From NCBI RefSeq assembly GCF_009846885.1, contig NZ_WUWM01000013.1:1-64000 (forward strand): 64,000 nt of DNA. The letters are read 5' to 3'. Below the pieces are notes generated by a model. That model was not told the origin of the DNA, searched no databases, and saw only the letters and a program-made list of their open reading frames with translations. Positions 11,218 to 63,563 of this stretch are shown piece by piece (position 1 is the first letter of the stretch; each line of letters begins with the position of its first letter). The translations under genes and the position numbers were made by a program. The DNA comes from Paenibacillus puerhi. Lineage in GTDB: Bacteria; Bacillota; Bacilli; Paenibacillales; NBRC-103111.

Positions 11218-11228
11218 GAGGTGCGTTT

Positions 11229-25072: not shown

Positions 25073-25075
25073 CTC

Positions 25076-25129
25076 GAACAGTTTTGTCGGTTTCATGTAT
25101 ATTCATCGAAAGCATCGGATTGCTATACT
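25076..25129 (+). promoter_or_regulatory. Activator-type promoter of the importer genes
   Basis: GAACA at 25076, TTTCATGTATA at 25091 and an extended -10 (TGCTATACT, hexamer at 25124) repeat the layout before the yesN-like gene base for base in spacing. It lies between the kinase gene stop and the permease start, so the importer can be induced separately. Confidence 0.6.
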
Positions 25130-25171
25130 GGGGACCAGGAAATGAAAGCGCAATCAAAAAGGGGTGAGAGC

Positions 25172-26991: not shown

Positions 26992-27048
26992 ACGATCTGC
27001 GATTGGACAAAAGCTGATGACCTAATAATGAAGAAAGAAGGGGTTTCG

Positions 27049-28602: not shown

Positions 28603-28650
28603 GGGGATACGTACTGGCGCTTTATCAGAGGATGGAAAGGGAGGAAAAAC

Positions 28651-37131: not shown

Positions 37132-44512
<7,381 letters not shown>

Positions 44513-45584: not shown

Positions 45585-48287
45585 TTATGCGTGACCGAGC
45601 TTAACATCGAGCCTCTCGTTTTCGAACCGGTAGGAGCCCGAGCCCAGGCGGAGGACGGCGTGACCGGATTCAAGCCGAAGGCAGGACACCTGGTCGCTCT
45701 CTGTCACCGCTAGGCCGCTTTCCGTCAGTTGCTCCAAGGAATCGGCCGGAATATGAAGCTCGGCGCTGCAGTTCACCGGAATGTCGACGGCAAGCGTTAG
45801 TGTACCCTTCTGACTGCGCTTCCAGGCGATCCTCACCGTCCCGCAGGGAAGCTGGTGACTGGCTTCGGCGCTGTCCATTCCCTCAAGGAAGCAGGGCCGA
45901 AGCTTCAGCTCGTAAGTATCTGTAGCGGGCTTGAAGCGGTAGCTGATGCCCGCGATGCCTGTATAGAACCATTCCTCGATATGGCCCAGCATAAAATGAT
46001 TCTGGGACTTTCCTACTGTCGGACCGTCCCAAGCCTCCGTCAAAGCGGTCGCGCCATGCTGGAGCTGGTAGCCGTAGCTCGGATGCTCGGTTTGCCGGGC
46101 CATTTCATAGATCAGATCGGAGAGACCATGCCGGGCAAGCGCCAGCAAGACGTAGCGGTGCCCGACATCGCCGGCCGTCGTATGCGTCCCGTGCCGCCGG
46201 ATATCCGCTACGAGCCGGGATAGAACGGCCTCCCTGTGCTGCTCCTCGACAAGTCCCAGCACAAGCGGCATGGCATTGGACGTCTGGCTGCCCGTCGCAT
46301 ACTGGATCGCCTCGGGATCGAAGAACTCGGCATTGAACGCTTCCTTGATCCCTTCGCGAAGCTGGCCGTATCGCACGACATCCTCGCTGTGCCCCAGCAG
46401 CTCCGAGATGCGCAGGAACACATCGACCATCTGGTAATACATGGCGGTTTCCGTATGGGCGATGGGGGTATTCTGCACGAAGCCGGGCCCTTGCTCGCCG
46501 ACGTCGTACCAGTCACCCAGTCCGAAATCGACCAGATAGCCCTTGGAGCTATCCGTTACGTACTCGATGTAGGCGCGCATGCCCGCATAATGCTCCTCCA
46601 GCATACGGCGGTTGCCGTACCACTGAAGCAAGTTCCAGCCGGTCAGCACGTAGGCGGCTCCCCAGGAGACCGAATCGCGGAAGCACCGCCATTCCTCGGA
46701 GAAAACGACATATTCAGGCGCTGTCGTCGGCAGCATGCCGCTTGGGAGCTGGGCATCGCGGATGTCCTCCATCGTTTTGACGAGCAGGCGCTCGATGTCG
46801 TAATTAAAGGCAACGGAAGGTCCCATCAAATGAACTTGCTCCAGCCACCCCAGCTTCTCGCGGTGCGGACAATCGGTAAAAATGCTTTTCATATTGCTGA
46901 GTATCGCGTAATTAATCAGACTGTGCGTTCGGTTGAGCAGCTCATCCGAGCAGGCGAAGGAACCTTTCGTCTCCGTATCCGGATATATCATCTGCCCCTT
47001 TAGTTCATGGAGGATCGGGCCCCCAGTGTCGGAGCCCGCTGTCTCCACGGGTGTGGCGCCCTCGATCTGCACATAGCGGAAGCCGTAATAGCTGAACCGG
47101 GGAGACCAGATTTCCACGCCTTCGCCCTTTAGCGTGTAGTGGAACCGGTAAGGCGACCCGGTCCATTTCTGATTGGCCGTACCATCCGCCTTGAGCAGCT
47201 CGGCCGGGGACAAAGTAATCACAGCGCCAGCAGGACCGCTCACTGCAACCTCGACCCAGCCGGAGAAATTTTGCCCCAGATCCGCCACATAGACGCCGGG
47301 AAACGGCTCTGTATAGCGAAGAGGACGGAACGTTCGCATTGTCTTCAAGGGAGCCAGCATCTGCGCTTTCATCGCTCCGGCCGGAGGCTTGGGCTCGGCG
47401 GCTTGGCCCCAGCTGTCCATCTCCATGTAATTGGCGCAATCCCAGCCCGGCTGCTCCAGTCTGGCATCATAATCCTCGCCTCCATAGATGCAGGAGAAGG
47501 TAAGGGGGCCAGGCGAGGTTCGCCAGCTTCTGCTGCTGGAAATCGTGACCCGCGACCCGTCCGCAAGGACCGCTTCCAGTTGAACCCGGCACACCGGTAT
47601 TCCGAAGGAGCCATTGAACTTCCGATAGCGTCCGCCGGGGATATGGTAGAATCCATTGCCCAGCATGATTCCGATCGCATTGGGACCGGCCTGCAGCGCT
47701 TCGGTCACATCATACACCGAGTAGAGGCAGGTGCGGTTATACTGGGTCCACCCGGGCTCGAGCACCCGGTTGCCGATCTTGCACCCGTTCAGGCGCAGCT
47801 CGTAATGGCCAAGTCCGGATACGTAGACGCGTGCGGAGCGAACTTGCTGCTCCAGCTGAAATTCCTCGCGGAAAAGAGGGAGATGCGCCGGAGCGTCCTC
47901 CGGCGTGAGCGCTGCGCCGATCCAGCGGGCTTGCCAATCCGCCTCCTCCAGCAGGCCCATTTCGAACCAGGCGGTGTCGCTGACAATACGAACGCCGGCC
48001 TGATCCCAAATTTCGACCCTCCAATAATAGCGGGTTCGGGACTCCAGGGGGCTACCCTCATACCGCACATGGGCATGGCTGCCGCTTGTTCGTCTCCCGC
48101 TGTCCCACAGTTCGCCGATCCCTAGCGCCGCATCCTCCGGTCTGGAGGCTACGATAAGGCGATAGGCGGTTTGCCGCTCGCAGCGCTCGGCGCCGGGGGC
48201 TGCGAAGGACCAGCGGAAAGCCGGGCGCGCGACATCGATGCCCAGCGGCTCCTTCATCGCCTCCACATAAAGCTGCCCGATCCTCAT
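45585..48287 (-). CDS. GH78 alpha-L-rhamnosidase
   Basis: The 900-residue protein has the usual GH78 order: two N-terminal beta-sandwich domains (YRLIVASRPEDA, TRYYWRVEIWDQAG), the (alpha/alpha)6 barrel with DCPHREKLGWLEQ, where the acidic catalytic residues cluster, and a C-terminal beta domain. It releases rhamnose from rhamnogalacturonan oligomers. There is no signal peptide. It overlaps the upstream gene by ATGA, so the two are translated together. Confidence 0.9.
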   Translation of the reverse strand: MRIGQLYVEAMKEPLGIDVARPAFRWSFAAPGAERCERQTAYRLIVASRPEDAALGIGELWDSGRRTSGSHAHVRYEGSPLESRTRYYWRVEIWDQAGVRIVSDTAWFEMGLLEEADWQARWIGAALTPEDAPAHLPLFREEFQLEQQVRSARVYVSGLGHYELRLNGCKIGNRVLEPGWTQYNRTCLYSVYDVTEALQAGPNAIGIMLGNGFYHIPGGRYRKFNGSFGIPVCRVQLEAVLADGSRVTISSSRSWRTSPGPLTFSCIYGGEDYDARLEQPGWDCANYMEMDSWGQAAEPKPPAGAMKAQMLAPLKTMRTFRPLRYTEPFPGVYVADLGQNFSGWVEVAVSGPAGAVITLSPAELLKADGTANQKWTGSPYRFHYTLKGEGVEIWSPRFSYYGFRYVQIEGATPVETAGSDTGGPILHELKGQMIYPDTETKGSFACSDELLNRTHSLINYAILSNMKSIFTDCPHREKLGWLEQVHLMGPSVAFNYDIERLLVKTMEDIRDAQLPSGMLPTTAPEYVVFSEEWRCFRDSVSWGAAYVLTGWNLLQWYGNRRMLEEHYAGMRAYIEYVTDSSKGYLVDFGLGDWYDVGEQGPGFVQNTPIAHTETAMYYQMVDVFLRISELLGHSEDVVRYGQLREGIKEAFNAEFFDPEAIQYATGSQTSNAMPLVLGLVEEQHREAVLSRLVADIRRHGTHTTAGDVGHRYVLLALARHGLSDLIYEMARQTEHPSYGYQLQHGATALTEAWDGPTVGKSQNHFMLGHIEEWFYTGIAGISYRFKPATDTYELKLRPCFLEGMDSAEASHQLPCGTVRIAWKRSQKGTLTLAVDIPVNCSAELHIPADSLEQLTESGLAVTESDQVSCLRLESGHAVLRLGSGSYRFENERLDVKLGHA

Positions 48288-49324
48288 CCGCTTATCCCTC
48301 CTTGTACGGCTGCGGGCTTTGCTTTCCGGTCGAGGGGACGCGAAGTCGCTACGCTGATCGTACGGAACTCCCGGCCATAGTTGACGGTCGGATCGCCTTC
48401 GCGGGTTAGACGGCAGGCGCAGTAAAAATGATACAAAACACCGTTATGCGTAACGACAGAGGGCTTATGCGCGAAGACGGCATCCAGACTGTCCCCATCG
48501 CCGACCCGGATGATCGGCTCGGGATACTTTTCCCAGTTCAGCAAATCGGCAGAAAGCGCGATGCCTTCCTGCGCCTTCTTGTAGTCGTAGCCGAAATAGT
48601 ACATGATCCAGCCGTTATCGTCTCGGAGGACACAGGGGTCGCTGACGAAGCCGCTATCCCATCCGTCCGGGGTCACCTTCAGCACAGGGTTATGCTCGTA
48701 CCGGCTCCAGGTGATCAGATCGTCCGAGAAAGCAACGCCGGTCTGCTCTAGCCAGCGGCCTTTGTTTTTATTCTTGGCGTTGTAGAACAAATAGAACCGC
48801 TCTTCATGCCGGATCAGGCACTCCTTGTACAATCCGCCTTGCTCCCAATCTGCGCCTGCCTCGGGGGTGAGGATCGGCTCGGGACAACGATGCCAGTCGA
48901 GCAGCCGTTCGTCCTCCGTCCAGGCGATGCCTATTTTGGCGGAGCCGACCTCATAGCCGAATTCCGGATAGGCATGATAGACCAGCCAATATTTCCCCTG
49001 CCATTTCTGCAGAACAGGCGGAGCATCGATCCGGTTTTCCTTCAGCATCCAGGTGCCGGCTACGTTTTTGGCATCCCAGCCGTTTCCTTCATCCCGCCTT
49101 AGGATGACGTCCAGGTGCTTCCATTCGAGCAAGTCTTCGCTGGTCGCAAGAGCTGTCTGGTAGCCGATCCCGTCGAAGCCGACGTACATCATGTAGAACA
49201 GGTCGTTATGCCGAAAAACGAACGGACAATCGACGGCACGCTCGTCAAAGCTTCCGGCAATTCCCGATCCGACCAATACCGGCTCTCCAAGCTTATATGG
49301 GGTCAAATAAGGTTCAATTCGCAT
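48284..49324 (-). CDS. Five-bladed propeller glycoside hydrolase (GH43/GH130/GH137-like)
   Basis: The 346-residue protein has repeated blade motifs (YMMYVGFD, YWLVYHAY, FYLFYNAK, WIMYYFGYD) and acid residues at the expected rim positions, for example Asp100 in NRIDAPPV, Glu168 in YKECLI and Asp229 in VSDPC. It could belong to GH43, GH130 or GH137; the last is known to cut arabinofuranose from rhamnogalacturonan II. I cannot decide from the sequence alone. It starts the two-gene operon with GH78. Confidence 0.65.
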   Translation of the reverse strand: MRIEPYLTPYKLGEPVLVGSGIAGSFDERAVDCPFVFRHNDLFYMMYVGFDGIGYQTALATSEDLLEWKHLDVILRRDEGNGWDAKNVAGTWMLKENRIDAPPVLQKWQGKYWLVYHAYPEFGYEVGSAKIGIAWTEDERLLDWHRCPEPILTPEAGADWEQGGLYKECLIRHEERFYLFYNAKNKNKGRWLEQTGVAFSDDLITWSRYEHNPVLKVTPDGWDSGFVSDPCVLRDDNGWIMYYFGYDYKKAQEGIALSADLLNWEKYPEPIIRVGDGDSLDAVFAHKPSVVTHNGVLYHFYCACRLTREGDPTVNYGREFRTISVATSRPLDRKAKPAAVQGGISG

Positions 49325-49606
49325 AGGGACCTCCTGGGGTTGTTCGTTTTTCCGGCACCGATGGCGCGGTTTCTACCAGATTACTATCGCCCCCATGCCC
49401 CCTGTGGGGGGGATTGACTCTGATCTATAGGGCAATCACATCTTCAAGCTTCACACCTGATTGACTTGGCCCGGAACGCGGCGTTAGGATGGGGGCAAAC
49501 GTATGATGCGGGGAGGTCAGCCGCAGCTTCAGGCAGTGACCGACCCGGCTGAAGACCGCGCAAGGCGCGGCCAGACATTCGGCCATATTCGGAAGGAGCG
49601 AGAGCT
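49325..49606. promoter_or_regulatory. Divergent control region between the two glycan operons
   Basis: The 282 bases separate the minus-strand propeller-GH78 pair from the long plus-strand operon. An inverted run of C and G (CCCCCATGCCCCC and TGGGGGG, 49391-49412) is the only striking feature. I see no clear -35/-10 pair or cre box. The GGAAGGAG ribosome site for the aldolase gene lies at its right end. Confidence 0.4.
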
Positions 49607-50524
49607 ATGTTAAAGCCGGCAGGGATTATTCCGGCCATGATTACGCCGTTTAACCGCGAGCAGCAGCTGGATGAAGCCGCACTCCGACAGCTGACACGGA
49701 GATTCGTTAACGCGGGTGTGCATGGATTGTTCGGACTTGGGACGAACGGAGAATTTTTCTCGTTGACAACCGACGAGAAGCTGCGCGTCGCCGAGATCCT
49801 GCTCGAAGAGGCAGGAGGACGGCTGCCGGTCTACATCGGCGCAGGCTGCGCCGGAACCTTGGAAACGATCCGCTTGGCCGTCCGCCTCGAACAGATGGGA
49901 GCGGATGCGCTAACCCTCATCACTCCCTATTTCCTTACCTTTACGCAGCAGGAGCTGATCGGACATTTTCAGGCCGTTGCGGCTGCGACGAACTTGCCGA
50001 TCGTGCTGTATAACATTCCTGCCCGAACGGGCAATTCGCTGCAGCCGAAGACGGTGGCGGAGCTCAGCCAAGTGCCTCATATCGTCGGGATCAAGGACAG
50101 CAGCGGAAGCTTCGACACGATTCTGCAGCTGCTGGAGCTGGCCGGTCCCGATTTTGCCGTGCTGGCGGGGACGGATTCGTTGATTTTGCCTACGCTGCTG
50201 GCAGGGGGACAGGGCGCCGTCGCGGCGACGGCCAACGTGTTTCCCGAGGTGTTGCTCTCCATCTACGAGCTGTGGAGCGAAGGGAGGGTGGTGGAGGCGG
50301 AGCAGGAGCAGCGCAAGCTGAGAGCTCTCCGCAGCGCCTTCTCGCTCGGTACGCTGCCCTCCGTCCTGAAGGAAGCGATGAATATGATCGGACTGCCTGC
50401 GGGCGAGCCCCGTCTGCCGGTCCAGCCGCTCAGTCCTTCCACCAGAGCGGAGCTGCAGGCTGTGATGAGCCGTTATGCCGAGCAAGGGGCGATGTCGCCC
50501 AAAGCAAGCCTAAAGCAAGTGTGA
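49607..50524 (+). CDS. DapA/NanA-superfamily aldolase
   Basis: The 305-residue TIM-barrel protein has GLGTNGEF, the Tyr135 in YNIPARTGN and the Schiff-base Lys163 in GIKDSSG. Family members split or make 2-keto-3-deoxy acids with pyruvate (dihydrodipicolinate synthase, N-acetylneuraminate lyase, KDG aldolase). At the head of this glycan operon it is more likely a catabolic lyase than lysine biosynthesis. Kdo or Dha from rhamnogalacturonan II, or 2-keto-3-deoxy-gluconate/rhamnonate, are possible substrates (inference). Confidence 0.88.
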   Translation: MLKPAGIIPAMITPFNREQQLDEAALRQLTRRFVNAGVHGLFGLGTNGEFFSLTTDEKLRVAEILLEEAGGRLPVYIGAGCAGTLETIRLAVRLEQMGADALTLITPYFLTFTQQELIGHFQAVAAATNLPIVLYNIPARTGNSLQPKTVAELSQVPHIVGIKDSSGSFDTILQLLELAGPDFAVLAGTDSLILPTLLAGGQGAVAATANVFPEVLLSIYELWSEGRVVEAEQEQRKLRALRSAFSLGTLPSVLKEAMNMIGLPAGEPRLPVQPLSPSTRAELQAVMSRYAEQGAMSPKASLKQV

Positions 50525-50651
50525 AGCAAGCATGAGCGCTGGGACCCAATAACGATAGCTCAGGCCAGGTAGTAGCCATGGAATACTCAGACACGTGGGG
50601 AGCAGGGCCGCGGCTAGCGCAAGGTCCATAATATTCGAGGAGGTCGGCTCT

Positions 50652-51293
50652 ATGCCGTTCAAGGCTAAAGACAAAATCGTATTTATCGGTGACAGCATCA
50701 CCGACAAAGGAAGAAAGAAAGATCCGATGAAGCTCGGTACTAGCTACGTTCGGCTGCTGCATGATTGGCTGACGGCGACCTATCCCGAGCTTTCGCTCCG
50801 GATCATCAACGAAGGGGTTTCCGGCAACCGTGTGACGGACCTGGCGAAGCGATGGACGCTCGACGTGCTTGACCATAAGCCGCAGTGGATATCGATTTCG
50901 ATCGGGATCAATGATGTGTGGCGGCAGCTCGATTCGCCCGATATGGAGCAGGTGCTTCCGGACCGCTTCGAGGAGATCTACGGGCAGCTGCTGGAGCAAA
51001 CCCGGGCGCTTCCGGATTGCCGGTTGATTCTGATGCAGCCGACGGTCATCAAGGAATACCCGGATTCGACCGGGAACCGTCTGCTCGTGCCGTATGTAGA
51101 GGCCGTCAACCGCTTGGCGGAGCGCTTCGGGGCTGTGCTGGTGCCGACTCATGAGGCGTTCGTTGATTTCCTGCGGCAGGACACGGGTAAGGATCTGACC
51201 ACGGACGGCGTGCATATGAACCCGCTCGGCGACATGCTGATGGCGGCAACCTGGTTGAAATCCGTGAAGGGCGGAAGCGGCGGCCGCCTATAA
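50652..51293 (+). CDS. SGNH/GDSL esterase
   Basis: The 213-residue protein has IGDSIT (Ser15), GVSGNR, SIGINDVW and DGVHMNP, the four SGNH blocks of carbohydrate acetyl esterases. ATG 50652 follows GAGGAGG by eight bases. It probably removes acetyl groups that block the glycosidases of the same operon. It is unlike the GDSL protein at 11479, sharing only the family motifs. Confidence 0.85.
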   Translation: MPFKAKDKIVFIGDSITDKGRKKDPMKLGTSYVRLLHDWLTATYPELSLRIINEGVSGNRVTDLAKRWTLDVLDHKPQWISISIGINDVWRQLDSPDMEQVLPDRFEEIYGQLLEQTRALPDCRLILMQPTVIKEYPDSTGNRLLVPYVEAVNRLAERFGAVLVPTHEAFVDFLRQDTGKDLTTDGVHMNPLGDMLMAATWLKSVKGGSGGRL

Positions 51294-51387
51294 ACATGAT
51301 GAAATTGCCCTATATCGGTCCACGCGCTTTCCTGTAAACTGAACGCCATTCAGGAAAGAACAGAAGTTAAGGATGGAGGAGAACGGG

Positions 51388-52692
51388 ATGACCTACGAGG
51401 TTCAGCCGACAACCGGAGACAGCAGTTGGTTTACGCATGACCGGTTCGGCTTGTTTATTCATTGGGGGCTATATTCGCTTGGGGCCCGGCACGAATGGCT
51501 GCAGTCCCGCGAAAGATCGAGTACGGAGAAGTACGGAGGCAAGTATTTCAAGCGTTTCGACCCGGATCTGTATGATCCCGAGCTGTGGGCTCAGCTTGCC
51601 CATGAGGCAGGCATGCAGTATATGATCGCGACGACGAAGCACCACGAAGGCTTCTGCCTGTGGGACAGCAAGCTGACGGACTTCAAGGCCCCTCTTACGC
51701 CGGCACGGCGAGATGTACTGCGTCCGATGGTCGATGCTTTCCGTAACCGGGGAATGAAGGTAGGTTTTTACTACTCGCTGCTGGATTGGAACCACCCCCA
51801 TTATACCGTCGATCCGAAGCATCCCCTGCGGCTCGACCCGGCCTTTATCGAAAGCAGCCGGCAGCGGGATATGTCGATCTACCGGAGCTACCTGCGAGGG
51901 CAAACGGAGGAGCTGCTGACCGAATTCGGGAAGATCGATCTGATGTTCTATGATTTCTCCTTCCCCGAGGAGAACGGGCTTGCGGGGAAAGGCAAGGAGG
52001 ACTGGGGCAGCGAGGAACTCGTCAGCCGGATCCGTTCGCTTCAGCCGCATATTCTGCTCAATGACCGCCTGCAGATCGGCGGAGACATCACGACGCCGGA
52101 GCAATACATGCCCACTCGATGGGTCGAGGTGAACGGCAGGAAGGTCGTCTGGGAAACCTGCCATACGTTCAGCGGCTCATGGGGGTATCACCGCGAGGAG
52201 GACTCGTGGAAGAGTGTCGAAGTGCTGGTCAAGATGCTGATCGATGTGGTCAGCAAGGGCGGCAACCTGCTGCTGAACGTCGGACCGACGGGACGCGGGG
52301 AGTTCGATGAGCGGGCGGTCGACCGCCTGAAGGGCATCGGGTCCTGGATGCGGAGGCACAGTCGTTCGATCTATGGCTGCACGCAGGCGCCCGAGGAGTT
52401 CGTATGTCCCCCTGACTGCAGACTTACGTATAACCCCCAGACAAACCGGCTGTATGTCCATGTGTTGAGCTGGCCGTTCAAGAACATTCATCTGCGCGGC
52501 CTCGCGGGCAAGGTGGAGTATGCGCAGCTGCTGCATGACGCCTCGGAAATCCGCATGAAGGAAGGCTTCGTCCCGAGCGGGATCGAGGAAGGGGCGTTCC
52601 GGGAAGGCCGGGACACCGAGACGCTGACGCTTTCCATCCCGGTGAAGCAGCCGAATGTGACGGTGCCGGTGATCGAGCTGTTTTTAAAATAA
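51388..52692 (+). CDS. GH29 alpha-L-fucosidase
   Basis: The 434-residue protein starts with WFTHDRFGLFIHWGLYSLG and has TTKHHEGFCLWDS, the catalytic Asp189 in IDLMFYDF and the WETCHTFSGSWGYH segment, all GH29 marks. ATG 51388 follows GGAGGAG by eight bases. Fucose occurs in pectin side chains, including rhamnogalacturonan II. There is no signal peptide. It lies 50 bases before the next gene. Confidence 0.92.
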   Translation: MTYEVQPTTGDSSWFTHDRFGLFIHWGLYSLGARHEWLQSRERSSTEKYGGKYFKRFDPDLYDPELWAQLAHEAGMQYMIATTKHHEGFCLWDSKLTDFKAPLTPARRDVLRPMVDAFRNRGMKVGFYYSLLDWNHPHYTVDPKHPLRLDPAFIESSRQRDMSIYRSYLRGQTEELLTEFGKIDLMFYDFSFPEENGLAGKGKEDWGSEELVSRIRSLQPHILLNDRLQIGGDITTPEQYMPTRWVEVNGRKVVWETCHTFSGSWGYHREEDSWKSVEVLVKMLIDVVSKGGNLLLNVGPTGRGEFDERAVDRLKGIGSWMRRHSRSIYGCTQAPEEFVCPPDCRLTYNPQTNRLYVHVLSWPFKNIHLRGLAGKVEYAQLLHDASEIRMKEGFVPSGIEEGAFREGRDTETLTLSIPVKQPNVTVPVIELFLK

Positions 52693-52742
52693 GGCGGGGG
52701 GCCGTCCGGCCCCGAGTCCGCAAATGGAGGAATATCGCCGCG

Positions 52743-55454
52743 ATGAAAGCAATCACGCTAGGCTATGAACGAAACCCCGTTCCCCGGGTAGCATACGGTG
52801 TCCAGCTGCTCAAGGAGGCGCTGGAGAGCTGCGGCTATGAAGTAAACGCCGAGGAGGTGTCGTGGACCTGGGACACGTACCGATCCGCACCCGGGTTGAA
52901 GCTCTTTGCCGCCAATCGCGGAGAATCGGAGCTGCTTCGGCAGCTGGAGGAGCGCGATGTGCTGCTGTACCATACGCATGCCCCCGAGGAAGAAGGGTTT
53001 TATCTGGCGTCCTGCCCGGGAAGCCTGACGACGATCTCGGGCGGAAGCGACTCAGGCGTTCTATACGGTTGTATGGAGCTGGCAAGGCGCATTCAAGCCG
53101 AAGGACGCTTGCCGGTCGATCTCGCCTTCGGGGATGCCCCCCGCTTTTCTATTCGCGGCCCGGCTATCGGGCTGCAGAAGACGACGGTGGAGCCCCCGCG
53201 GCTTACGTATGAATATCCGATCACGCCGGACCGTTTTCCATGGTTTTACGACCGTGACTTGTGGCGGGATTTTCTCGATATGATGCTGGAGGAACGATGC
53301 AATATCGTCTATCTATGGAGCGGTCATCCCTTCTCCTCGCTGGTGAAGCTTGCGGATTATCCAGAGGCGCTGGAGGTGACGGACGAGGAGTTCGCTCTCA
53401 ATGTGGACACCTTCCGCTGGATCGCGGAGGAGGCGGACCGTCGCGGTATCTGGGTTGTATTGAAGTTCTACAACATCCATATTCCGCTGCCGTTTGCCCA
53501 GAAGCACGGCTTGAAGCAGCATCAGCCGAAGCCGCTGCCGATCACAAGCGATTATTACAAAAAGTCGCTGTCGGCGTTCGTCAGCTCGTTCCCCAACGTG
53601 GGCCTGATGGTATGTCTCGGGGAAGCGCTGCAGGGACAGATCTACGGGGTGGAATGGTTTACTGAGACGATTCTGGCCGGCTTGCTGGAGGGCTTAAGCA
53701 AGGCGGATGTCAAGGAAAAGCCGCCGATCATCCTTCGTTCCCATGCCATCGAGCCGCAGAAGGTGATCGAAGCCGCGCTGCCCCTATATCCGCGTCTGTA
53801 TACGGAGGCCAAGTATAATGGCGAGTCACTGACCACGTACACGCCAAGAGGCAAATGGCAGCAAATCCATCACAGACTCAGCTCGCTCGATTCGGTACAT
53901 ATTGTGAATGTGCATATTTTAGCCAATCTGGAGCCGTTCCGCTTCGGCGCCCCGTCCTTCATCCAAAAATGCATGCAGGCGGCTAAATACCGGCTTAAAT
54001 CGAACGGCTTGCATCTCTATCCGCTGTTCTTCTGGGATTGGCCTTATTCCCCGGATAACACGGTCCCCAGGCTGAGGCAGCTCGACCGCGACTGGATCTG
54101 GTACGCGACGTGGTTCCGCTACGCCTGGAACCCGGATCGCGAGCCGGAGGCCGAGCGTCGTTATTGGAGCGAGGTGCTGGGGAGGCGGTACGGCAGCCGC
54201 GAAGCGGGAGAGGCGATCCTGGATGCGTACGAGGCGTCGGGAGCATGCGCGCCCAAGCTGCTGAGACGATTCGGCATCACGGAGGGGAATCGGCAGACGA
54301 TGAGCCTTGGCATGACCATGAGCCAGCTGACGAACCCGGAACGCCATATGCCCTGGCCGGATCTATGGGAATCCCAGGCTCCTGCAGGCGAACGGCTGGA
54401 GGAATACGTGCTTCGCGAAGTGAAGGGGGAGCCGCATGTCGGAGAAACGCCGCCGGAGCTGATCGCAGCTTGCGAGCTTCACGCCGAGGAAGCGGTGAAT
54501 GCCATCGCACGGGCGCGCCGCCATACGACCCTCAACCGCGAGGAGTTCGACAGACTGGCTGATGACATGAAGGCGATCCGCCTGATGGTTCGCTCGTATG
54601 CGCATAAGGTGCGGGCGGCGATACAGATTCTGACCTACAAGCATACGGTGTGCGGAGACTATTTCCAGCGGCTGGACCTGCTGGAGGCGGCGGAAGAACA
54701 GCTGATGCATGGTCTGGACGACTATCGCGAGCTCGCCGAGCTGACGGCCCGGACCTATACGTTCGCCAACAGCATGCAGACCCAGCAGCGCAAGGTTCCC
54801 GTTCGCGGAGGCCTTGACTATGGGCATTGGCAAGCGTGCCTGCCCGTCTATGAGAAGGAGCTGGACCAATTCCGCTTGCATCTCGGCGAGCTGAGAGCAG
54901 GGGTTCTGCCCGCGGCCCTGCAGAACCTGGAAGAGCCGATCACGGCCTACCGGGAAGCTCCGTTTACCTTGCTGTCGCCGGATGCGCAAACGTACCGGGT
55001 GACGAAGGAAGCGTGCGTGTTTACGGATGGCGATATTCATATCGTCGGCTGCGCCGAGGAGTTGGATGGCCTGACCGGCGTCCGCTTCAGTCAGATGGAG
55101 GCGGGCAAGCGGGGATTTGCGGTCGAGCTGGAGCTGACCCGCCCATCGAAGGTGCTGGTGGGATATTTTAACTCCAAGGAAGAGCAGTGGCTGCAGGTCC
55201 CAAGCCTCGAGGAGAACACCCATGCGGACGATCAGGGGGGATATGAGCCCGTGCTGCGCAAAGGCTTCCGCTTGTATGCGTATCCGTCCGTCAACATTCA
55301 TGCCTTCCGGTTCGAAGCAGGGCGGCATGTGCTTGATCTGGGACGAGGGGCTTATGTCATCGCAGGGGTGATCGACGACGATCAGCCGCTCCGGGTGAGG
55401 GACGTGGAGCATAAGAACGATGGCGTCAATACGTTAGACTGGCTGTACGAATAG
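52743..55454 (+). CDS. GH138-like alpha-galacturonidase candidate
   Basis: The 903-residue protein has an N-terminal hydrolase-type domain (GGSDSGVLYGCMELARRI, as in GH20/GH67 accessory domains), a TIM barrel at about residues 150-450, a helical region and a C-terminal beta domain. From memory, GH138 enzymes, which remove galacturonic acid from rhamnogalacturonan II chain A, use Glu294, Arg332 and Glu361. In this protein the same numbers fall on Glu (CLGEAL), Arg (IILRSHA) and Glu (YNGES). That supports GH138, although the literature numbers need checking. GGAGGA lies 11 bases upstream of the start. If it is not GH138, it is an unassigned glycosidase of a GH67/GH115-like fold. Confidence 0.65.
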   Translation: MKAITLGYERNPVPRVAYGVQLLKEALESCGYEVNAEEVSWTWDTYRSAPGLKLFAANRGESELLRQLEERDVLLYHTHAPEEEGFYLASCPGSLTTISGGSDSGVLYGCMELARRIQAEGRLPVDLAFGDAPRFSIRGPAIGLQKTTVEPPRLTYEYPITPDRFPWFYDRDLWRDFLDMMLEERCNIVYLWSGHPFSSLVKLADYPEALEVTDEEFALNVDTFRWIAEEADRRGIWVVLKFYNIHIPLPFAQKHGLKQHQPKPLPITSDYYKKSLSAFVSSFPNVGLMVCLGEALQGQIYGVEWFTETILAGLLEGLSKADVKEKPPIILRSHAIEPQKVIEAALPLYPRLYTEAKYNGESLTTYTPRGKWQQIHHRLSSLDSVHIVNVHILANLEPFRFGAPSFIQKCMQAAKYRLKSNGLHLYPLFFWDWPYSPDNTVPRLRQLDRDWIWYATWFRYAWNPDREPEAERRYWSEVLGRRYGSREAGEAILDAYEASGACAPKLLRRFGITEGNRQTMSLGMTMSQLTNPERHMPWPDLWESQAPAGERLEEYVLREVKGEPHVGETPPELIAACELHAEEAVNAIARARRHTTLNREEFDRLADDMKAIRLMVRSYAHKVRAAIQILTYKHTVCGDYFQRLDLLEAAEEQLMHGLDDYRELAELTARTYTFANSMQTQQRKVPVRGGLDYGHWQACLPVYEKELDQFRLHLGELRAGVLPAALQNLEEPITAYREAPFTLLSPDAQTYRVTKEACVFTDGDIHIVGCAEELDGLTGVRFSQMEAGKRGFAVELELTRPSKVLVGYFNSKEEQWLQVPSLEENTHADDQGGYEPVLRKGFRLYAYPSVNIHAFRFEAGRHVLDLGRGAYVIAGVIDDDQPLRVRDVEHKNDGVNTLDWLYE

Positions 55455-55500
55455 CCGCTGCAAGGATGCGAGGCTGCGGTGCAGCAGAGAGGGGTTGCTT

Positions 55501-57951
55501 ATGTCAGATTACGATACGACGCTGTGGTACCGGGAGCCGGCGCACAGCTGGTTCGAGGCGCTTCCGGTCGGCAACGGCCGCATGGGCGCGATGGTATTCG
55601 GAGGCCCGCAGCGGGAGCGTCTTGCCCTGAATGAGGATACCCTATGGTCGGGGGAGCCGAGGGATACGGTTCGCTATGACGCCCGCCTGTATCTGGAGGA
55701 AGCGAGGAGGCTGATCTTCTCGGGACGTCATGCGGAAGCGGAGAGGTTGATCGAGCGCAACATGCAGGGGTCCGAGATCGATTCCTATCAGCCGCTCGGG
55801 GACCTGGAGCTGTTGTTCGACGAGGTCGGCGAGATCACGGACTACCGCAGAGAGCTGAGCTTGGACGAAGGAATTGTCCGTACGAGCTTCCGTTCGGGAG
55901 GGCTTCGGCATACCCGGGAAGTTTTTGTATCGGCCGTCGATCAAGTGCTGGCGATCCATCTGGAGAGCGAAGCGCCGATGAGCTTCACCGTGCTGCTCCA
56001 CAGCCCGCTGCAGTTCGCCGTAAGGCAGGCGGCCTGGAACCGCCTGTCGTTATCCGGCAGATGCCCGGCTATCGTACAGCCGAATACGGTCAAGACCTTG
56101 GAGCCGGTGCAATATGCCGAGGGAAAAGGGATCGGCTTCGAGGTTATGGCGCATGCTACAGCTTGCAACGGGAGGGTAGAGGCGAGCGGGGGGAGGCTGC
56201 GCATTCGTTCCAAGGGCCCGGTGACGCTGCTGATCGCGGCAGCGACGAGCTATGCGGGGTATGACCCGGCCCGGGCGGCTGCCGGACGTCAGCCCGCCAT
56301 CCTTTGCGAAGCCTGGCTGCGGGAGGCGGAGGCGCTCGGCTACGAGGCTCTGCGAGAGCGGCATGTGCGCGAGCATGCCGGCATGTTCGGCAGGGTATCG
56401 CTCCAGTTGGGAGCAAGTGCCGACAAAGGGCCAAGCAGCGAGCCTCGGGGTGCCTCTCTTCCGACAGATCGCCGCATCCTTGCGGTGCGCGACGGCGAGG
56501 ACGACCCGGGACTGGCGGCGTTATTTTTTCAATACGGACGCTATCTGCTCCTTGCCAGCTCCAGACCGGGCTCGCAGCCGGCGAATCTGCAGGGCATCTG
56601 GAACGATAAGCCGCAGCCACCCTGGTGCAGCAGCTGGACGACCAATATTAATGTGCAGATGAATTATTGGCCTGCGGAGGCCGCCCATCTGTCCGAGTGT
56701 CACGAGCCTCTGTTCGATCTGATCGAGGGCTTGCGGGATAAGGGAAGGAAGGTCGCGGCTGTCCACTACGGGTGCCGGGGCTGGACAGCCCACCACAACG
56801 TCGATCTGTGGCGCACCGCTACACCGGTCGGGGGTTCGCCGAGCTGGGCGTTTTGGCCCATGGCCGGCGTCTGGCTCTGCGAGCACCTGTGGGAGCGCTA
56901 TGCTTTCAGCCAGGATGAACAATTTTTGGCCAAGGCTTATCCTACGATGAAGGAAGCGGCGCAATTCGGGCTGGACTGGCTGGTGGAAGGGCCAGGCGGC
57001 CGGTTGGTCACCTGCCCGTCCACATCGCCCGAGAACAGCTTCATGGGACCTGACGGTTATACAAGCAGCGTTACGCATGGGGCTACGATGGATATGGCGC
57101 TGCTGCGCAGCTTATTCGCTCATTGCATCGAAGCGAGCGTAACGCTCGGTGAAGACGAAGGTTTTCGCGAAGAGCTGGAGCAGGCGCTGGAGCAATTGCT
57201 TCCGTATCGGATCGGTCGGCATGGACAGCTGCAGGAATGGGCGGATGATTACGAGGAGGCCGAGCCGGGCCACCGCCATACCGCTCATCTGGTCGCGCTG
57301 CACCCGCTGGAGCAGATCACCGTCGATACCGAGCCTGAGCTGGCGGCGGCCTGCCGCCGCTCCCTGGAGCGTAGGCTTGAGCACGGAGGCGCTCATACCG
57401 GCTGGAGCTGCGCATGGACGGTAAGCTTCTGGGCGCGGCTGCGGGAGCCCGCTCAGGCGCACCATTATTTGTCCGAGCTGCTTGCCGGGCTGCATCCGAA
57501 CCTGACGAACGCTCACCGGCATCCGAAAGTTAAGCTGGATATTTTCCAGATTGACGGCAATTTGGCCGGTACGGCTGGCATACTTGAACTGCTGCTCCAG
57601 AGTCATCGCGGCATCGTGCATCTGCTGCCTGCGCTTCCCCGCAGCTGGAGCCGGGGCAAGGTGAAAGGACTGCGCGCGCGAGGCGGCTTCGAGGTAGATC
57701 TCGAATGGGAGGCCGGAAGCCTGACCCGGGTGTCCGTTCTGTCCCGCGCGGGCAGACCGTTAAGGCTGCGCATGGCCGGAGATGTGGAGCTGACCTGGGA
57801 GGGCCAGGCCTTGAATGCGCAGCAGGAGTTCTCCTTAAAGGATGGGCTGCAGACGCTGTCCATCTCTACCGAAGCCGGAAGGCGATACGAGCTTCGAGCC
57901 GTCCCGCTGGAAGCGAACCGAGGAGGCGAACCGATTGAACGAGCAACCTGA
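55501..57951 (+). CDS. GH95 alpha-L-fucosidase/galactosidase
   Basis: The 816-residue protein has the GH95 N-terminus (WFEALPVGNGRMGAMVFGG, LNEDTLWSGEP) and barrel segments PANLQGIWNDK, NYWPAEAAHLSE and NVDLWRTATP. GH95 members cut alpha-1,2-fucose, or alpha-L-galactose as known for a Bacteroides enzyme of the rhamnogalacturonan II system. ATG 55501 has GAGAGGGG six bases upstream. Its stop overlaps the next gene by 17 bases. Confidence 0.92.
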   Translation: MSDYDTTLWYREPAHSWFEALPVGNGRMGAMVFGGPQRERLALNEDTLWSGEPRDTVRYDARLYLEEARRLIFSGRHAEAERLIERNMQGSEIDSYQPLGDLELLFDEVGEITDYRRELSLDEGIVRTSFRSGGLRHTREVFVSAVDQVLAIHLESEAPMSFTVLLHSPLQFAVRQAAWNRLSLSGRCPAIVQPNTVKTLEPVQYAEGKGIGFEVMAHATACNGRVEASGGRLRIRSKGPVTLLIAAATSYAGYDPARAAAGRQPAILCEAWLREAEALGYEALRERHVREHAGMFGRVSLQLGASADKGPSSEPRGASLPTDRRILAVRDGEDDPGLAALFFQYGRYLLLASSRPGSQPANLQGIWNDKPQPPWCSSWTTNINVQMNYWPAEAAHLSECHEPLFDLIEGLRDKGRKVAAVHYGCRGWTAHHNVDLWRTATPVGGSPSWAFWPMAGVWLCEHLWERYAFSQDEQFLAKAYPTMKEAAQFGLDWLVEGPGGRLVTCPSTSPENSFMGPDGYTSSVTHGATMDMALLRSLFAHCIEASVTLGEDEGFREELEQALEQLLPYRIGRHGQLQEWADDYEEAEPGHRHTAHLVALHPLEQITVDTEPELAAACRRSLERRLEHGGAHTGWSCAWTVSFWARLREPAQAHHYLSELLAGLHPNLTNAHRHPKVKLDIFQIDGNLAGTAGILELLLQSHRGIVHLLPALPRSWSRGKVKGLRARGGFEVDLEWEAGSLTRVSVLSRAGRPLRLRMAGDVELTWEGQALNAQQEFSLKDGLQTLSISTEAGRRYELRAVPLEANRGGEPIERAT

Positions 57952-58945
57952 ACCTAGAAGCCGGACATTTATATTCGGAGAGGAGCGGCCCTTTGCCAGC
58001 TGCCATGCTTCAACAGTAGAGGCGCTTCCCGGCGGCGAACTGATCGCCGCCTGGTTCGGCGGCAGCCGGGAGGGAGCGGCCGATGTTGCGATCTGGATAT
58101 CGCGGCGTTCGCCCGCAGGAGACTGGTCGGCTCCGCTATGTATAGCGGATCGGACGGATGTCGCGCACTGGAACCCGGTCCTCTTCCGCAGGAATGACGG
58201 CATGCTGTTTTTGTATTATAAAATCGGCCCGAAGATCGAGTACTGGATGACCATGGTGATGAGCTCGCCGGATAACGGACATACGTGGACCGAGCCTGTT
58301 CCGCTCGTCGAAGGGGACCAGGGCGGGCGCGGGCCGGTGAAGAACAAGCCGATTACGCTCGCGGACGGGACGATTGCCGCACCTGCGTCGCTGGAGCCCG
58401 CGTGGGACGCCTTTGTGGACCTGTCCGCAGACGGGGGCCGGACATGGACGCGCAGCGAGCCGGTGCCGCTGCCCGAGGATCGAAGCGGCTTTCTCGGCAA
58501 GGGTATAATCCAGCCTGCCCTCTGGGAGTCGTCTCCGGGCATCGTGCATATGCTGGCCCGCAGCACCGCAGGCGCTATTTACCGCAGCGATTCGACGGAC
58601 GGAGGCCGAACGTGGAGCTTGGCTTACGCAACCTCAGTCCCGAACAATAACAGCGGAATCGACCTGGTCAAGCTCGCAGACGGCATGCTCGCGCTCGTGT
58701 GCAATCCCACACGACCCGAGCCGGGGAAGCTGAAGGGCCCGAGGACGCCGCTTGTGCTGCTGCTTTCCCGCGACAACGGATTCACATGGGGGGGCGAAAC
58801 GCTCATCGATGAGGGGGATAAGCAGTATTCCTATCCGGCCGTCATCGCGAAAGGTCAAGAGCTGCATGTCACTTATACGTGGAAAAGAGAACGGATTGCT
58901 TATTGGAAGACGACTGTTCATCGAATGAGCAGGATTGACCTATAG
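57935..58945 (+). CDS. Sialidase-like BNR propeller hydrolase 1
   Basis: The 336-residue protein has four Asp-box motifs (SPDNGHTWT, SADGGRTWT, STDGGRTWS, SRDNGFTW) in a six-bladed sialidase fold (COG4692-type). The TTG start at 57935 follows AGGAGG by eight bases and lies inside the GH95 gene. The classic sialidase FRIP motif is absent, so sialic acid is not the expected substrate. Relatives in plant-cell-wall clusters may release 2-keto-3-deoxy sugars or other residues. There is no signal peptide. Confidence 0.75.
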   Translation: MNEQPEPRSRTFIFGEERPFASCHASTVEALPGGELIAAWFGGSREGAADVAIWISRRSPAGDWSAPLCIADRTDVAHWNPVLFRRNDGMLFLYYKIGPKIEYWMTMVMSSPDNGHTWTEPVPLVEGDQGGRGPVKNKPITLADGTIAAPASLEPAWDAFVDLSADGGRTWTRSEPVPLPEDRSGFLGKGIIQPALWESSPGIVHMLARSTAGAIYRSDSTDGGRTWSLAYATSVPNNNSGIDLVKLADGMLALVCNPTRPEPGKLKGPRTPLVLLLSRDNGFTWGGETLIDEGDKQYSYPAVIAKGQELHVTYTWKRERIAYWKTTVHRMSRIDL

Positions 58946-59045
58946 ATTGAGCGGTTAACACCCTGAAGCGATCATTGGAATATTTTATGATATAAGGAGA
59001 AAGTCAGGAGGTTCACTTGCTGCCGGAATGGAGGGATGAGGAAGG

Positions 59046-61256
59046 ATGCCAGCTTCAAGACGAATAGACGATGTGCTTCACGCCGAAAAGAAAGCGCTTC
59101 GCACCTTGCCGGGCGCTCTGCTGCTAGGTTCGACGGGAGCGCGCTTATGGGCTGATTATGTCGAGCCTGTGCCAGGCTTCTCCGGCCGGTTCGACTTTAT
59201 ACATAAAGCAAATATCCCTTTGCTGTACCGCATCGCGAATAATTTGACAGACAGCTTCGAGCCCTGCCAGACTCAGTGGCGTCCGAGCCATCTGCGGATG
59301 GAGTTCGAGAACAGCCGGCTTAAGCTGTCCGAAAGCAAGTTCATTACATGGGACGACTGCGCGGTATCCTGCCAAACCTGGACCAATCGCAGTTCCCGGG
59401 ACTTGGTTCTGAGCCTGGAAACCTGGCAGGATGCCTTCTCCCGGAGAGTGGGCAACAGGCTGCTGGGCAAGTTCGACCCTGGTCATTACAGCTTTGCCAT
59501 CGCGGGGGCGATCGCCGTCAGCGATCCGTCATTGCTGGAGGAAGTGCGCCTGAAGCCGGGGGAGTCCCGTTCGTTTATTGTAGCCGCAGCCTTCGGTATC
59601 GAAGGCCAGGACGAGGCGGAAGCGCTCCTCCAGCGCGCAGCGGGCTATGCGGAAAGCGGAAGGAACGGGGCTGAGGTCGTCGCTCGCCAGCAGGAGGAAT
59701 ATGACGCTTGGTTCGACAAAGCGCCTGTCTTCGCCAGCAGCGACGAGCTGCTTACCCGCACTTGGAGCTACCGCTGGTTTCTGCTTCGGCACAATCTGGC
59801 CGATCCGAGGTACGGGCACTTATCTTATCCGTTGTTCTATGAGGGCAGGTCCCACAAGAAAAGCAAGACGCCCTTCGGCAAGGGCGGTTGGGAATTCAGC
59901 AAGCTGATCAATCTGTCAGTGCCCTTGCATGTGACGGATGCCCGCTGGTATCACGATCCGGCATATGCGGAGGGACCCTTCCGCAATATGGTCCAGGCCC
60001 CGGGCGAGGGGGGCATGCTGAGCTGCCTGACGGTCGATACGATCATGCATTCCTTCGCGAACTTTGCCTGTTGGGCGGCTTATCAGCTGTATCTGGTGCA
60101 TGGCAATCTGGAGACGGTCGCCGGATGGCTGCCGGCGCTGAAGCGCAATGTGGAGGCTTGGATCGACGTGTACGGCAGCGAAAGCGACAAGCTGATGATC
60201 GAGTACAAGCATACGCGGACAGGCAAGGAATACCAGCCGAGCTACTGGTATTTTCATGACTATCCGAAAAATCCGAAGGACAAACAAACCTATACGCCGC
60301 TCAAGCGGGTGGATCGTACGGTCTACCACTACTTGAACACGCTGGCTATTGCGCGACTATGCGAAGCTGCAGGCGATCCTAAGGCGGAGGACTACCTTCG
60401 GCGGGCCGATGCGATCCGGCAAGATGTATTGGCGAAAATGTGGGACGAGGAAACGCAGTTTTTCTACGATCTTCACTACGAGACGGATGAGAAGGCATGG
60501 GTTAAAAATCTGGTCGGTGTATATCCCGGCTGGGCCCAAATGCTGGACGCGCGGTTCGATGGCATGATCGGGCATTTATTCAATGAAGAAGAATTTCGTA
60601 CCGGTTGCCCCTTCCCCTCCGTATCGGCGGACTGTCCGGCGTACGCGAAGGAAGGAGGGTGGATGGGGCACTTCGTCAAAGGCCGCAACGGCTGCGTTTG
60701 GGACGGCCCCACCTGGCCTTACACGAATTCTATCGCGCTTGATGCGCTGGCTAAGGAGAGCAAGCGAAGCGGCCATAAGTACGATGCGGATTTCGCCTAT
60801 TATTTGCGGGAATATTCGTTTCTGCATTTCCAAAATCGCGACTTGAACCGACCCGGACTTGTCGAGCATTATAACAGCGCTACCGGAGAGCCGTTAAGCG
60901 ACGAACAGGAGTATAATCATTCCTTTTACATCGATCTGCTGATCAGCCATGTCGCCGGATTGTCCGTCGGGCAGCAGGGGCTGACGCTTGACCCGCTGGA
61001 TATCGGGCTGGACTACTTCGCATTGGATAGGGTAAAAGCCGGCGGGCTGGAGCTGCGGATCACCTACCTTGGGCCCGATGCGTCCTCGCAGGACGCGGAC
61101 ATCGCCGGACTGGAGCCCGGATACCGGTTGTACGTCAACGGCAAGGAGGCATTCGCCAGCGACAAGCTGTGCCGTATGGAGCTCTCATGGAAGAGTCTTC
61201 GGGACGGGACGGAACAGGGAACGACTAAACGAGATGCAAGGAGTGTATGCGAGTGA
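59046..61256 (+). CDS. (alpha/alpha)6-barrel glycoside hydrolase (MGH1/GH63/GH142-like)
   Basis: The 736-residue protein has a beta-rich N-terminal domain of about 220 residues and an (alpha/alpha)6 barrel with TRTWSYRWFLLRHNLADPRY, EGRSHKKSKTPFG, NGCVWDGPTWPYTNSIAL and EYNHSFYIDLL. Acidic residues in the WDGPTWP and EYNHS segments are the usual catalytic places in GH63-like families. It lies between two sialidase-like genes. A GH142-like arabinofuranosidase is possible given this setting, but the family is not settled. The ribosome site GGAGGG lies about ten bases upstream. Confidence 0.65.
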   Translation: MPASRRIDDVLHAEKKALRTLPGALLLGSTGARLWADYVEPVPGFSGRFDFIHKANIPLLYRIANNLTDSFEPCQTQWRPSHLRMEFENSRLKLSESKFITWDDCAVSCQTWTNRSSRDLVLSLETWQDAFSRRVGNRLLGKFDPGHYSFAIAGAIAVSDPSLLEEVRLKPGESRSFIVAAAFGIEGQDEAEALLQRAAGYAESGRNGAEVVARQQEEYDAWFDKAPVFASSDELLTRTWSYRWFLLRHNLADPRYGHLSYPLFYEGRSHKKSKTPFGKGGWEFSKLINLSVPLHVTDARWYHDPAYAEGPFRNMVQAPGEGGMLSCLTVDTIMHSFANFACWAAYQLYLVHGNLETVAGWLPALKRNVEAWIDVYGSESDKLMIEYKHTRTGKEYQPSYWYFHDYPKNPKDKQTYTPLKRVDRTVYHYLNTLAIARLCEAAGDPKAEDYLRRADAIRQDVLAKMWDEETQFFYDLHYETDEKAWVKNLVGVYPGWAQMLDARFDGMIGHLFNEEEFRTGCPFPSVSADCPAYAKEGGWMGHFVKGRNGCVWDGPTWPYTNSIALDALAKESKRSGHKYDADFAYYLREYSFLHFQNRDLNRPGLVEHYNSATGEPLSDEQEYNHSFYIDLLISHVAGLSVGQQGLTLDPLDIGLDYFALDRVKAGGLELRITYLGPDASSQDADIAGLEPGYRLYVNGKEAFASDKLCRMELSWKSLRDGTEQGTTKRDARSVCE

Positions 61257-62317
61257 ATCGCTTTAATGGTATGATCACCCCCAGCGAGGCAGATTCTCGG
61301 ATCATGGAGGCTTATCTTCCGCTATCCGAGCCCAGCGACAACCATGCTGCCAATCTGCTGGAGCTGGATAACGGAGACCTGCTGTGCACGTGGTTTTCCG
61401 GGAGCGGGGAAGGAAATCCCGATACCCATATCGTCTTGTCTCGGCTGCCTGCCGGGACGGACTGCTGGACGCAGCCTGTCCCGCTTTCAGAGGACGCAGG
61501 CCGCTCCGAGCAAAATCCGGTGCTCTTTCAAGCGCCGGACGGCAAGCTGTGGCTGTTTCATACGTCCAATGAGCCGCATAATCAGAAAACCTCCAGAGTC
61601 GTGTACCGGACATCGGAGGACAGGGGAGAGACCTGGAGTCCTGCCGAGGTGTTATTCGATAGACTTGGTATTTTTCTAAGACATCCTCCGATCGTCCTGA
61701 GCAACGGTGACTGGCTGCTCCCGGCTTATTACTGCAAGCTGGACGGACATTACAGCGTCGTACAGATCAGCAGCGACCAGGGGGCAACGTGGACGGAATA
61801 CGAGGTGTCCGGCAGCACGCACCGGGTTCAGATGAATGTGCTGGAACGCAGCGACGGATCTTTGCTCGCCATGTTCCGCAGCAGGCAGGCCGACCGCATC
61901 TATATGAGCGAATCCCGCGATGGCGGCCGCACCTGGTCGAAGCCTGTCAAAAGCGTACTTGCGAACAACAATTCCTCTACGCAGGCTGTGAAGCTGCCGA
62001 GCGGTCGTATGGCACTGATCTATAACGACTCTACGATGGAGCGCGACCAGTTCCGCTGGGTGCAGAGGAAGGGCGAGTTCCGCAAGAAGCCGCTGCGCAC
62101 GCCGCTGACGTTATCCCTCTCGGAGGATGACGGACAAACCTGGCCTTATTCCCGCAATATCCAGATGGCGGACCTGGAATACAAGGATTCCGAGATTGGC
62201 TACTCTTACCCGTCTATCCTAGCTACCCGCGACGGGAACCTGCACATCGCTTTCTCCTACTTGCGCAAAGGCATTAAATATGTGCGCCTCGGGGAACAAC
62301 TGGTATTTGAGGATTGA
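61253..62317 (+). CDS. Sialidase-like BNR propeller hydrolase 2
   Basis: The 354-residue protein has Asp-box motifs (SEDRGETWS, SSDQGATWT, SRDGGRTWS, SEDDGQTW) and NNNSSTQAVKLPSGRMALIY, shared in pattern with protein 1 (NNNSGIDLVKLADGMLALV). GTG 61253 has AAGGAG eight bases upstream and overlaps the stop of the previous gene; ATG 61247 is only two bases from that site. It is the last enzyme gene of the operon. Sequence similarity to protein 1 suggests an old duplication with a changed substrate. Confidence 0.75.
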   Translation: MNRFNGMITPSEADSRIMEAYLPLSEPSDNHAANLLELDNGDLLCTWFSGSGEGNPDTHIVLSRLPAGTDCWTQPVPLSEDAGRSEQNPVLFQAPDGKLWLFHTSNEPHNQKTSRVVYRTSEDRGETWSPAEVLFDRLGIFLRHPPIVLSNGDWLLPAYYCKLDGHYSVVQISSDQGATWTEYEVSGSTHRVQMNVLERSDGSLLAMFRSRQADRIYMSESRDGGRTWSKPVKSVLANNNSSTQAVKLPSGRMALIYNDSTMERDQFRWVQRKGEFRKKPLRTPLTLSLSEDDGQTWPYSRNIQMADLEYKDSEIGYSYPSILATRDGNLHIAFSYLRKGIKYVRLGEQLVFED

Positions 62318-62429
62318 AATGGAACGACAATCATGTCATATTAAAGTACATAAAGCTGCTCGGTAGAGCAATGGAACGATCGAAATTGGAATTGCGTCGA
62401 TTTGCAAACCTGTATTTGGGGTGATGGGG

Positions 62430-63365: not shown

Positions 63366-63563
63366 GGTTGGAAAACGAGAACGGTTCGCTTGGCAGCGCT
63401 CCCGCGAAGACAGGCTAAGAGCTGCCGGCTGAAAGCACTATTCGCCTATAGAGTAAGTTATGATCCCCTATAATCCGCCATGGAGCAGCCTGTATAATGA
63501 AGGACATTCGGGACAATTGTAACCGTTCCCAACATGAAGAGGGAAACTGTGGGAGGTGCGGGC

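Follow-up and report, generated by a model that had tools for sequence, protein, structure and literature searches.

Few plant polysaccharides are as complex as rhamnogalacturonan II (RG-II), which comprises about 30 residues when whole; how it is broken down has been worked out in molecular detail mainly in Bacteroides gut bacteria. The Bacteroides thetaiotaomicron gene numbers given below for models and structures (BT0996, BT0997, BT1020) are in part ones that we take to apply. In the published accounts, the glycoside hydrolase (GH) families GH137, GH138, GH139, GH142 and GH143 show strong co-occurrence in most pairs, are tied to RG-II debranching and are found primarily in Bacteroidetes (PMC7922503); the RG-II enzymes named in a metaproteome paper include GH127, the aceric acid hydrolase family, together with GH78, a GH33 hydrolase for 3-deoxy-D-manno-oct-2-ulosonic acid (Kdo) and GH95 (PMC11214529); and BT0996 releases glucuronic acid from an RG-II oligosaccharide (PMC7939467). 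No report of RG-II use in Paenibacillus was found in the literature searched, with most subscription journals outside its reach. Here we describe a gene block of Paenibacillus puerhi on contig NZ_WUWM01000013.1, positions 1–64,000 of which form the window, that is, the whole stretch of 64,000 nucleotides analysed; block genes with larger coordinates lie on the same contig, past the window. Like the B. thetaiotaomicron RG-II loci, the block carries GH138, GH137-type, GH95, GH78, GH2 and esterase genes; unlike them, it includes an ATP-binding cassette (ABC) importer with a 988-residue binding protein. From its gene content, family assignments and conservation we infer substrate and activities, and consider that this block is probably a Gram-positive RG-II utilisation locus, which would import RG-II oligosaccharides and strip them inside the cell.

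This reading is favoured because GH138, GH137-type and GH142-like proteins occur in one block and their families are tied to RG-II (PMC7922503), and because the kit is kept at 15 of 20 places in relatives, with a part common to five Bacteroidia loci. The 903-residue protein encoded at 52743..55454 (+ strand) is, by full-length sequence homology, a GH138 alpha-D-galacturonidase homologue and not a proven functional equivalent. Its residues 12–903 match the NCBIfam model NF049878 (alpha-D-galacturonidase) with an E-value of 2.6e-303, and the BPa0997 structure 6hzf, which we take to be a GH138 structure, aligns with residues 79–902 at 6.6e-205, while Pfam gives no match at E 0.01. The glutamate replaced in the E361S variant (KYNGES motif) corresponds to E361 here, if the construct numbering equals the index in the 893-residue chain. 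The five-bladed propeller protein at 48284..49324 (− strand) is a GH137-type beta-L-arabinofuranosidase homologue. It matches NF049877 (beta-D-glucuronidase/beta-L-arabinofuranosidase) in the N-terminal part of that model, at positions 31–353 (1.4e-53), as well as structure 5mt2 (8.9e-36); both are presumably BT0996, whose N-terminal domain we take to be GH137. The third protein, aa6, is an (alpha/alpha)6 protein at 59046..61256 (+) that matches Pfam MGH1-like (1.7e-38). A 14-sequence profile of aa6 found 5mqr first in the PDB (1.8e-22), presumably BT1020 carrying GH142 and GH143, followed by 6m5a, the beta-L-arabinobiosidase HypBA2 (1.2e-20). We therefore label this candidate beta-L-arabinofuranosidase no further than GH142-like.

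The remaining members of the block fit around these three. The preliminary description had proposed an RG-II locus at 45585..62317 from ten enzyme genes, and this proposal holds in outline: all ten are long open frames, family models agree with the GH78, GDSL, GH29, GH95, paired BNR_2 and (alpha/alpha)6 genes that it named, the 903-residue protein is a GH138 homologue, and one propeller is of GH137 type, so that the family placements named as refuting it did not occur. The genes are those for a GH78 alpha-L-rhamnosidase family protein (45585..48287, −; Pfam 1.6e-96), the GH137-type protein, the aldolase ALD of the dihydrodipicolinate synthase (DHDPS) family (49607..50524, +; Pfam DHDPS 3.5e-84), a GDSL esterase (50595..51293, +; 1.7e-26), a GH29 alpha-L-fucosidase family protein (51373..52692, +; 2e-81), the GH138 homologue, a GH95 family protein (55495..57951, +; Pfam GH95 catalytic domain 1.8e-167), the sialidase-like BNRa (57935..58945, +), aa6, and the second sialidase-like protein BNRb (61247..62317, +), whose start overlaps the 3' end of the GH142-like gene. 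The open frame of BNRa begins at 57842, and a TTG at 57935 after GAGGAGG is its likelier start. Two flanking assignments fared differently. The GH2 neighbour is of LacZ type (37141..40500, +; NCBIfam beta_gal_Bga2A 8.9e-291, 967.4 bits, slightly below the cut-off of 999). GH106, proposed for the 1353-residue protein at 40451–44512, was rejected as a firm label, with 1.8e-5 and 23.9 bits against a gathering score of 29; since that protein has a homologue in one of 20 other GH138 places, it was left out of the conserved block. Position 62317 is not the limit of the block, which continues beyond the window edge with the ABC importer, a pair of apiosidase-fold proteins, another GH95 protein, GH2, GH42 and GH106 proteins and two unclassified proteins.

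The sialidase-like pair and the aldolase suggest how the acidic sugars of RG-II could be handled. In plants, Kdo and 3-deoxy-D-lyxo-2-heptulosaric acid (Dha) are reported only from RG-II, and both resemble sialic acid (PMC12168206), which would explain sialidase-like proteins beside aldolases. BNRa and BNRb match the BNR_2 family (5.6e-74 and 5.4e-72), and the sialidase beta-propeller fold of GH33 was recovered for BNRa by model and for BNRb by sequence only; we regard them as candidate Kdo and Dha hydrolases, respectively. GH33 enzymes work with a Tyr/Glu catalytic pair, and the Tyr is retained in both proteins within a YSYP motif. Compared with the sialidases of GH33 and its Kdo hydrolase, they have an invariant His near the first Arg position, in what we take to be the RIP motif, and identity is 15–20% among the matches listed. 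The fold comparisons were made with VIA-align as second looks at Foldseek matches; 5mqr, which presumably holds a GH143 propeller, is absent from the 50 matches listed for the BNRa model, an absence that excludes nothing.

For ALD, the 2-keto-3-deoxy-acid label of the preliminary description is not supported as stated, since the protein scores as DapA. Within the DapA/N-acetylneuraminate lyase superfamily it matches DHDPS, and all 11 ALD sequences retain YNIPxRTG, which we take to be a DapA motif; together with the DapA score, this makes it less likely that ALD is simply a Kdo aldolase. What sets ALD apart from DapA is its place within a glycan block. In chemical terms, a retro-aldol cleavage of Dha would yield an aldehyde acid with four carbons, similar to aspartate semialdehyde, the partner of DapA, which could reconcile the DapA-likeness with a role here. 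A second DHDPS type that lacks YNIPxRTG (DHDPS2) is found in relatives and in Bacteroidia; it is present at 11 of 16 places (the 15 kit-bearing places plus the window's own genome, with five places of another type left out), not in the window's own block.

The preliminary description had expected import of oligomers and their breakdown by enzymes lacking signal peptides, and both points gained support. We screened the hydropathy of the first 45 residues from the most upstream start codons with a threshold of our own, which is a screen and not a proof: no member of any block enzyme family scored above threshold, whereas the big binding protein did so in 16 of 16 cases. A co-conserved importer (16 of 20 places) lies just past the window, comprising the 988-residue binding protein, which is fused to a long module of about 590 residues without assignment, two permeases and a MalK-type ATPase. 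The gene for the latter begins inside the window (63534..64000, reaching 64694 on the contig, +; NF008653, UgpC-type, 457 bits, above the cut-off of 432). SusC and SusD are absent among the scanned proteins of the block, which, in contrast to a Bacteroides-type RG-II polysaccharide utilisation locus, has enzymes without predicted signal peptides. An AraC-type regulator gene is located inside the block (62421..63320, +; HTH_18 3.3e-24, AraC_binding 1.5e-10). Promoter- and terminator-like sites are no commoner in the window than in shuffles. Sites resembling cre are commoner than chance, with five matches in the window where 1.0 would be expected; two of these five make up a single palindrome. 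The site at 63517–63531 stands directly before the importer ATPase gene, and another lies at 62505–62520.

To follow the block in relatives, we compared 20 of the 29 other GH138 places scoring above 800 bits, drawn from 17 genomes, counting a gene as present when tblastn gave at least 44% identity over at least 15% of the query. The kit is present in 15 of the 20 and in the same order in 14, with inserted or missing genes allowed; the misses are five places of another type (G079, both in G030, and the second ones in G052 and G059). The sets of places differ slightly from gene to gene. GH78, GH137, GDSL, both GH95, aa6, BNRb, Gfo, XI-like, o81807 and LacZ-type GH2 genes are each found in 15 places, and GH29, AraC, MalK, the big binding protein and both permeases in 16. 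BNRa and the apiosidase-fold pair occur in 14, a second GH2 type (78805-type) in 18, U578 in 19 and ALD in 10. In 13 places the LacZ-type GH2 homologue lies inside the block, directly after the o81807 homologue. Named GH138 loci belong to P. caseinilyticus (the nearest), P. sedimenti, P. aceris and three more Paenibacillus strains, with 76–81% identity in GH138. A co-loss of BNRa, aa6, BNRb and the apiosidase-fold genes in genome G103 was considered and dropped, since a genome-wide search placed its BNR genes about 33–40 kb upstream of its GH138 gene; G103 is counted as carrying the kit with genes moved. In another genome (G042, loci L076–L078) several block genes are in pieces, through sequencing error or decay. 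A second GH138 locus type (L065, L079, L104, L110) has GH138 beside U578, with the 78805-type GH2 in three of four.

At the level of whole genomes, a threshold of E 1e-100 finds GH138 in 28, BNRb in 27 and U578 in 29 of 104 genomes of the family. GH138 and BNRb co-occur in 26, with two genomes having GH138 only, one BNRb only and 75 neither (Fisher p 4.4e-21, uncorrected for kinship); for GH138 and U578 the corresponding counts are 28, 0, 1 and 75 (p 1.6e-24, likewise uncorrected). In ten further genomes of the family, all GH138 matches are weaker. With E 1e-150, 37 of the 392 genomes sampled from the order have GH138, across three families, as do 4 of the 398 sampled from the phylum, namely the genome studied here and three from a single genus with small genomes. 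Loci of that genus, which belongs to another family of the phylum and has genomes of 2.2–2.4 Mb, hold GH138, aa6 and the 78805-type GH2 (L173–L176 in G569 and G672). Outside the family, G915 (family f146) carries almost the whole kit including the importer. G1030 (f2) has GH138 twice, aa6, BNRb, AraC, the importer, U578, o81807 and the apiosidase-fold genes, while BNRa, GH137 and GH78 were not found within the 100 kb examined. G1099 (f2) has GH138, GH29, GH78, ALD, BNRa, BNRb and o81807, with no importer found within 60 kb. Four distant GH138-like hits (L007–L010, 23–27% identity) were not taken as evidence of RG-II use; a BNRb profile found nothing in their four genomes, in a search with no positive control.

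The block was then set against its Bacteroidia counterparts. Ten of 395 sampled genomes of that class have a GH138 above the NF049878 cut-off, and about 40 kb on either side were examined in five of them with the block profiles at E 1e-5. GH138, GH95 and an aa6 relative are present in all five, the aa6 relative adjoining GH138 in four. A complete GH78 and DHDPS2 each occur in three, BNRa and the alpha/beta-hydrolase of the Paenibacillus relatives each in two, and a stand-alone GH137 and a GDSL gene each in one. At one locus, a 1193-residue protein scores 1425.9 bits against the GH2 portion of NF049877. None of the five holds the big binding protein, its permeases, U578, o81807, apiosidase-fold genes or a best-hit BNRb. 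The enzyme core is thus partly common across phyla, and the uptake side and several enzymes differ.

Mechanistically, the RG-II reading would proceed as follows. Pectinases from elsewhere in the genome or from neighbouring organisms would release RG-II oligosaccharides, which the exported 988-residue protein would capture and the two permeases with the MalK-type ATPase would import. Exo-enzymes would then strip the side chains inside the cell: the GH137-type and GH142-like proteins would remove beta-L-arabinofuranose, GH78 rhamnose, GH138 alpha-galacturonic acid, GH95 L-galactose or L-fucose, and the GH2 proteins galactose or acidic residues, while acetyl groups would be taken off by the GDSL esterase. 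The sialidase-like pair would free Kdo and Dha, both of which DHDPS-family aldolases would split to pyruvate, with the AraC protein controlling the block. GH28 matches lie at six places of the genome, one of them within a separate pectin cluster of the window at 260–12165, and such proteins could make RG-II fragments.

Several observations weigh against this reading. The GH138 homologue reaches 1008.6 bits, below the NF049878 equivalog cut-off of 1300, which none of the 104 family genomes exceeds, against the ten Bacteroidia genomes; its exact linkage may consequently differ. The GH142 label of aa6 is weak, HypBA2 being nearly as close as 5mqr, and its relatives in Bacteroidia have a length of about 520 residues and no family assignment. 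In BNRa and BNRb the catalytic Glu of NanC/NanB is faced by Gln (Q224 and Q195), invariant in 28 rows, and ALD lies above the DapA cut-off (TIGR00674, 235.3 against 206.15 bits). GH139, GH141 and GH143 did not turn up, although no search aimed at them was made, and the block has no depolymerase. For an ABC importer, whole RG-II would be a large substrate. The co-occurrence test, finally, takes no account of kinship.

Some of these points would also suit a block serving another acidic glycan, such as arabinogalactan, an exudate gum, the side chains of RG-I or a bacterial polysaccharide that contains Kdo, in which case its GH138, GH137-type and GH142-like proteins would have diverged towards related linkages. 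The missing equivalog scores and the non-canonical nature of BNRa and BNRb as GH33 proteins agree with it, as do the broad substrates of GH2, GH29, GH42, GH78 and GH95; nevertheless, the families tied to RG-II sit together in the block, and the Bacteroidia loci with over-cut-off GH138 share part of the mixture, including BNRa in two of five and DHDPS2 in three, which makes this account improbable. A different proposal, overlapping with RG-II utilisation itself, sees the organism as unable to open RG-II and scavenging short fragments made by others. The lack of a predicted exported enzyme in the block and an importer of the sugar-oligomer type fit it, and it is a real possibility, somewhat short of an even chance; on the other side, the GH28 proteins could make fragments, and the two apiosidase-fold genes hint at larger pieces entering. 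That unrelated pectin genes came together by chance might be argued from the second pectin cluster in the window, such genes being common here, but relatives retain the kit at 15 of 20 places, and G915, from another family, has most of it as well; we regard a chance neighbourhood as extremely improbable.

The two apiosidase-fold genes, candidates for the apiosidase family GH140, lie past the window: contig gene 69559 matches PF13204 with 63.4 bits (cut-off 26.5) and has as its sole PDB match at E 0.01 the putative glycoside hydrolase 4n0r, and gene 71061 falls just under the cut-off with 26.0 bits. A contig protein at 86035 passes Pfam GH106 (PF17132) with 78.4 bits. Two strong GH127 matches are found in the genome outside the block, on contigs C36 and C15. 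The o81807 profile found no PDB chain at E 1 and Pfam no significant match; GH139 was considered for it because the GH139 fold resembles GH95 (PMC12282258), a proposal that PDB and Pfam did not support. U578 (contig 77062–78798), also unclassified, matches nothing in Pfam or NCBIfam and no PDB sequence significantly. Its structural model resembles GH42 and other clan GH-A enzymes (12% identity, root-mean-square deviation 4.0), and because 147 of its residues are modelled with low confidence, below 50 in predicted local distance difference test score (pLDDT), we claim this likeness at clan level only. The alignments of these proteins took 13 of 16 members for o81807, 17 of 19 for U578, 14 of 16 for aa6, 12 of 14 for BNRa and 14 of 16 for BNRb.

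Elsewhere in the window, the separate pectin-type cluster at 260–12165 comprises GH28, GH4 and GH88 genes, weak matches to oligogalacturonate lyase and to GH43, and two GDSL proteins, of which one is an esterase with a YXIM-type domain and the other is marginal. At 16178–21489, a BenE-type transporter is followed by NosD, NosL, an ABC-2 permease, an ATPase and a thioredoxin-like protein, a nos-type accessory cluster. A second importer, outside the conserved GH138 block, lies at 21702–29505, where two permeases and a binding protein are accompanied by a two-component system and a PhyH-family protein.

The evidence on the block also leaves room for a more ambitious proposal, which in its full form we hold to be tentative and rather unlikely: a self-sufficient cytoplasmic RG-II degradome of Paenibacillales, in which large fragments would be imported through the binding protein with its module of about 590 residues and the most difficult linkages would fall to enzymes from outside the known families. 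Kdo and Dha would be released by non-canonical sialidase-fold hydrolases (with BNRb in place of GH143), and the GH138-linked U578, o81807 or both would act as chain-A hydrolases, possibly on the 2-O-methyl-xylose-alpha-1,3-fucose bond that B. thetaiotaomicron is reported not to cut (PMC7939467). The block also supplies candidate founders of new glycoside hydrolase families and candidate tools for work on RG-II. U578 is an especially clean target, present in all 28 genomes of the family that have GH138 at E 1e-100 and in one other. If the RG-II reading is true, the Gram-positive intracellular system would represent a second solution to the same chemistry, and RG-II turnover would extend to soil bacteria.

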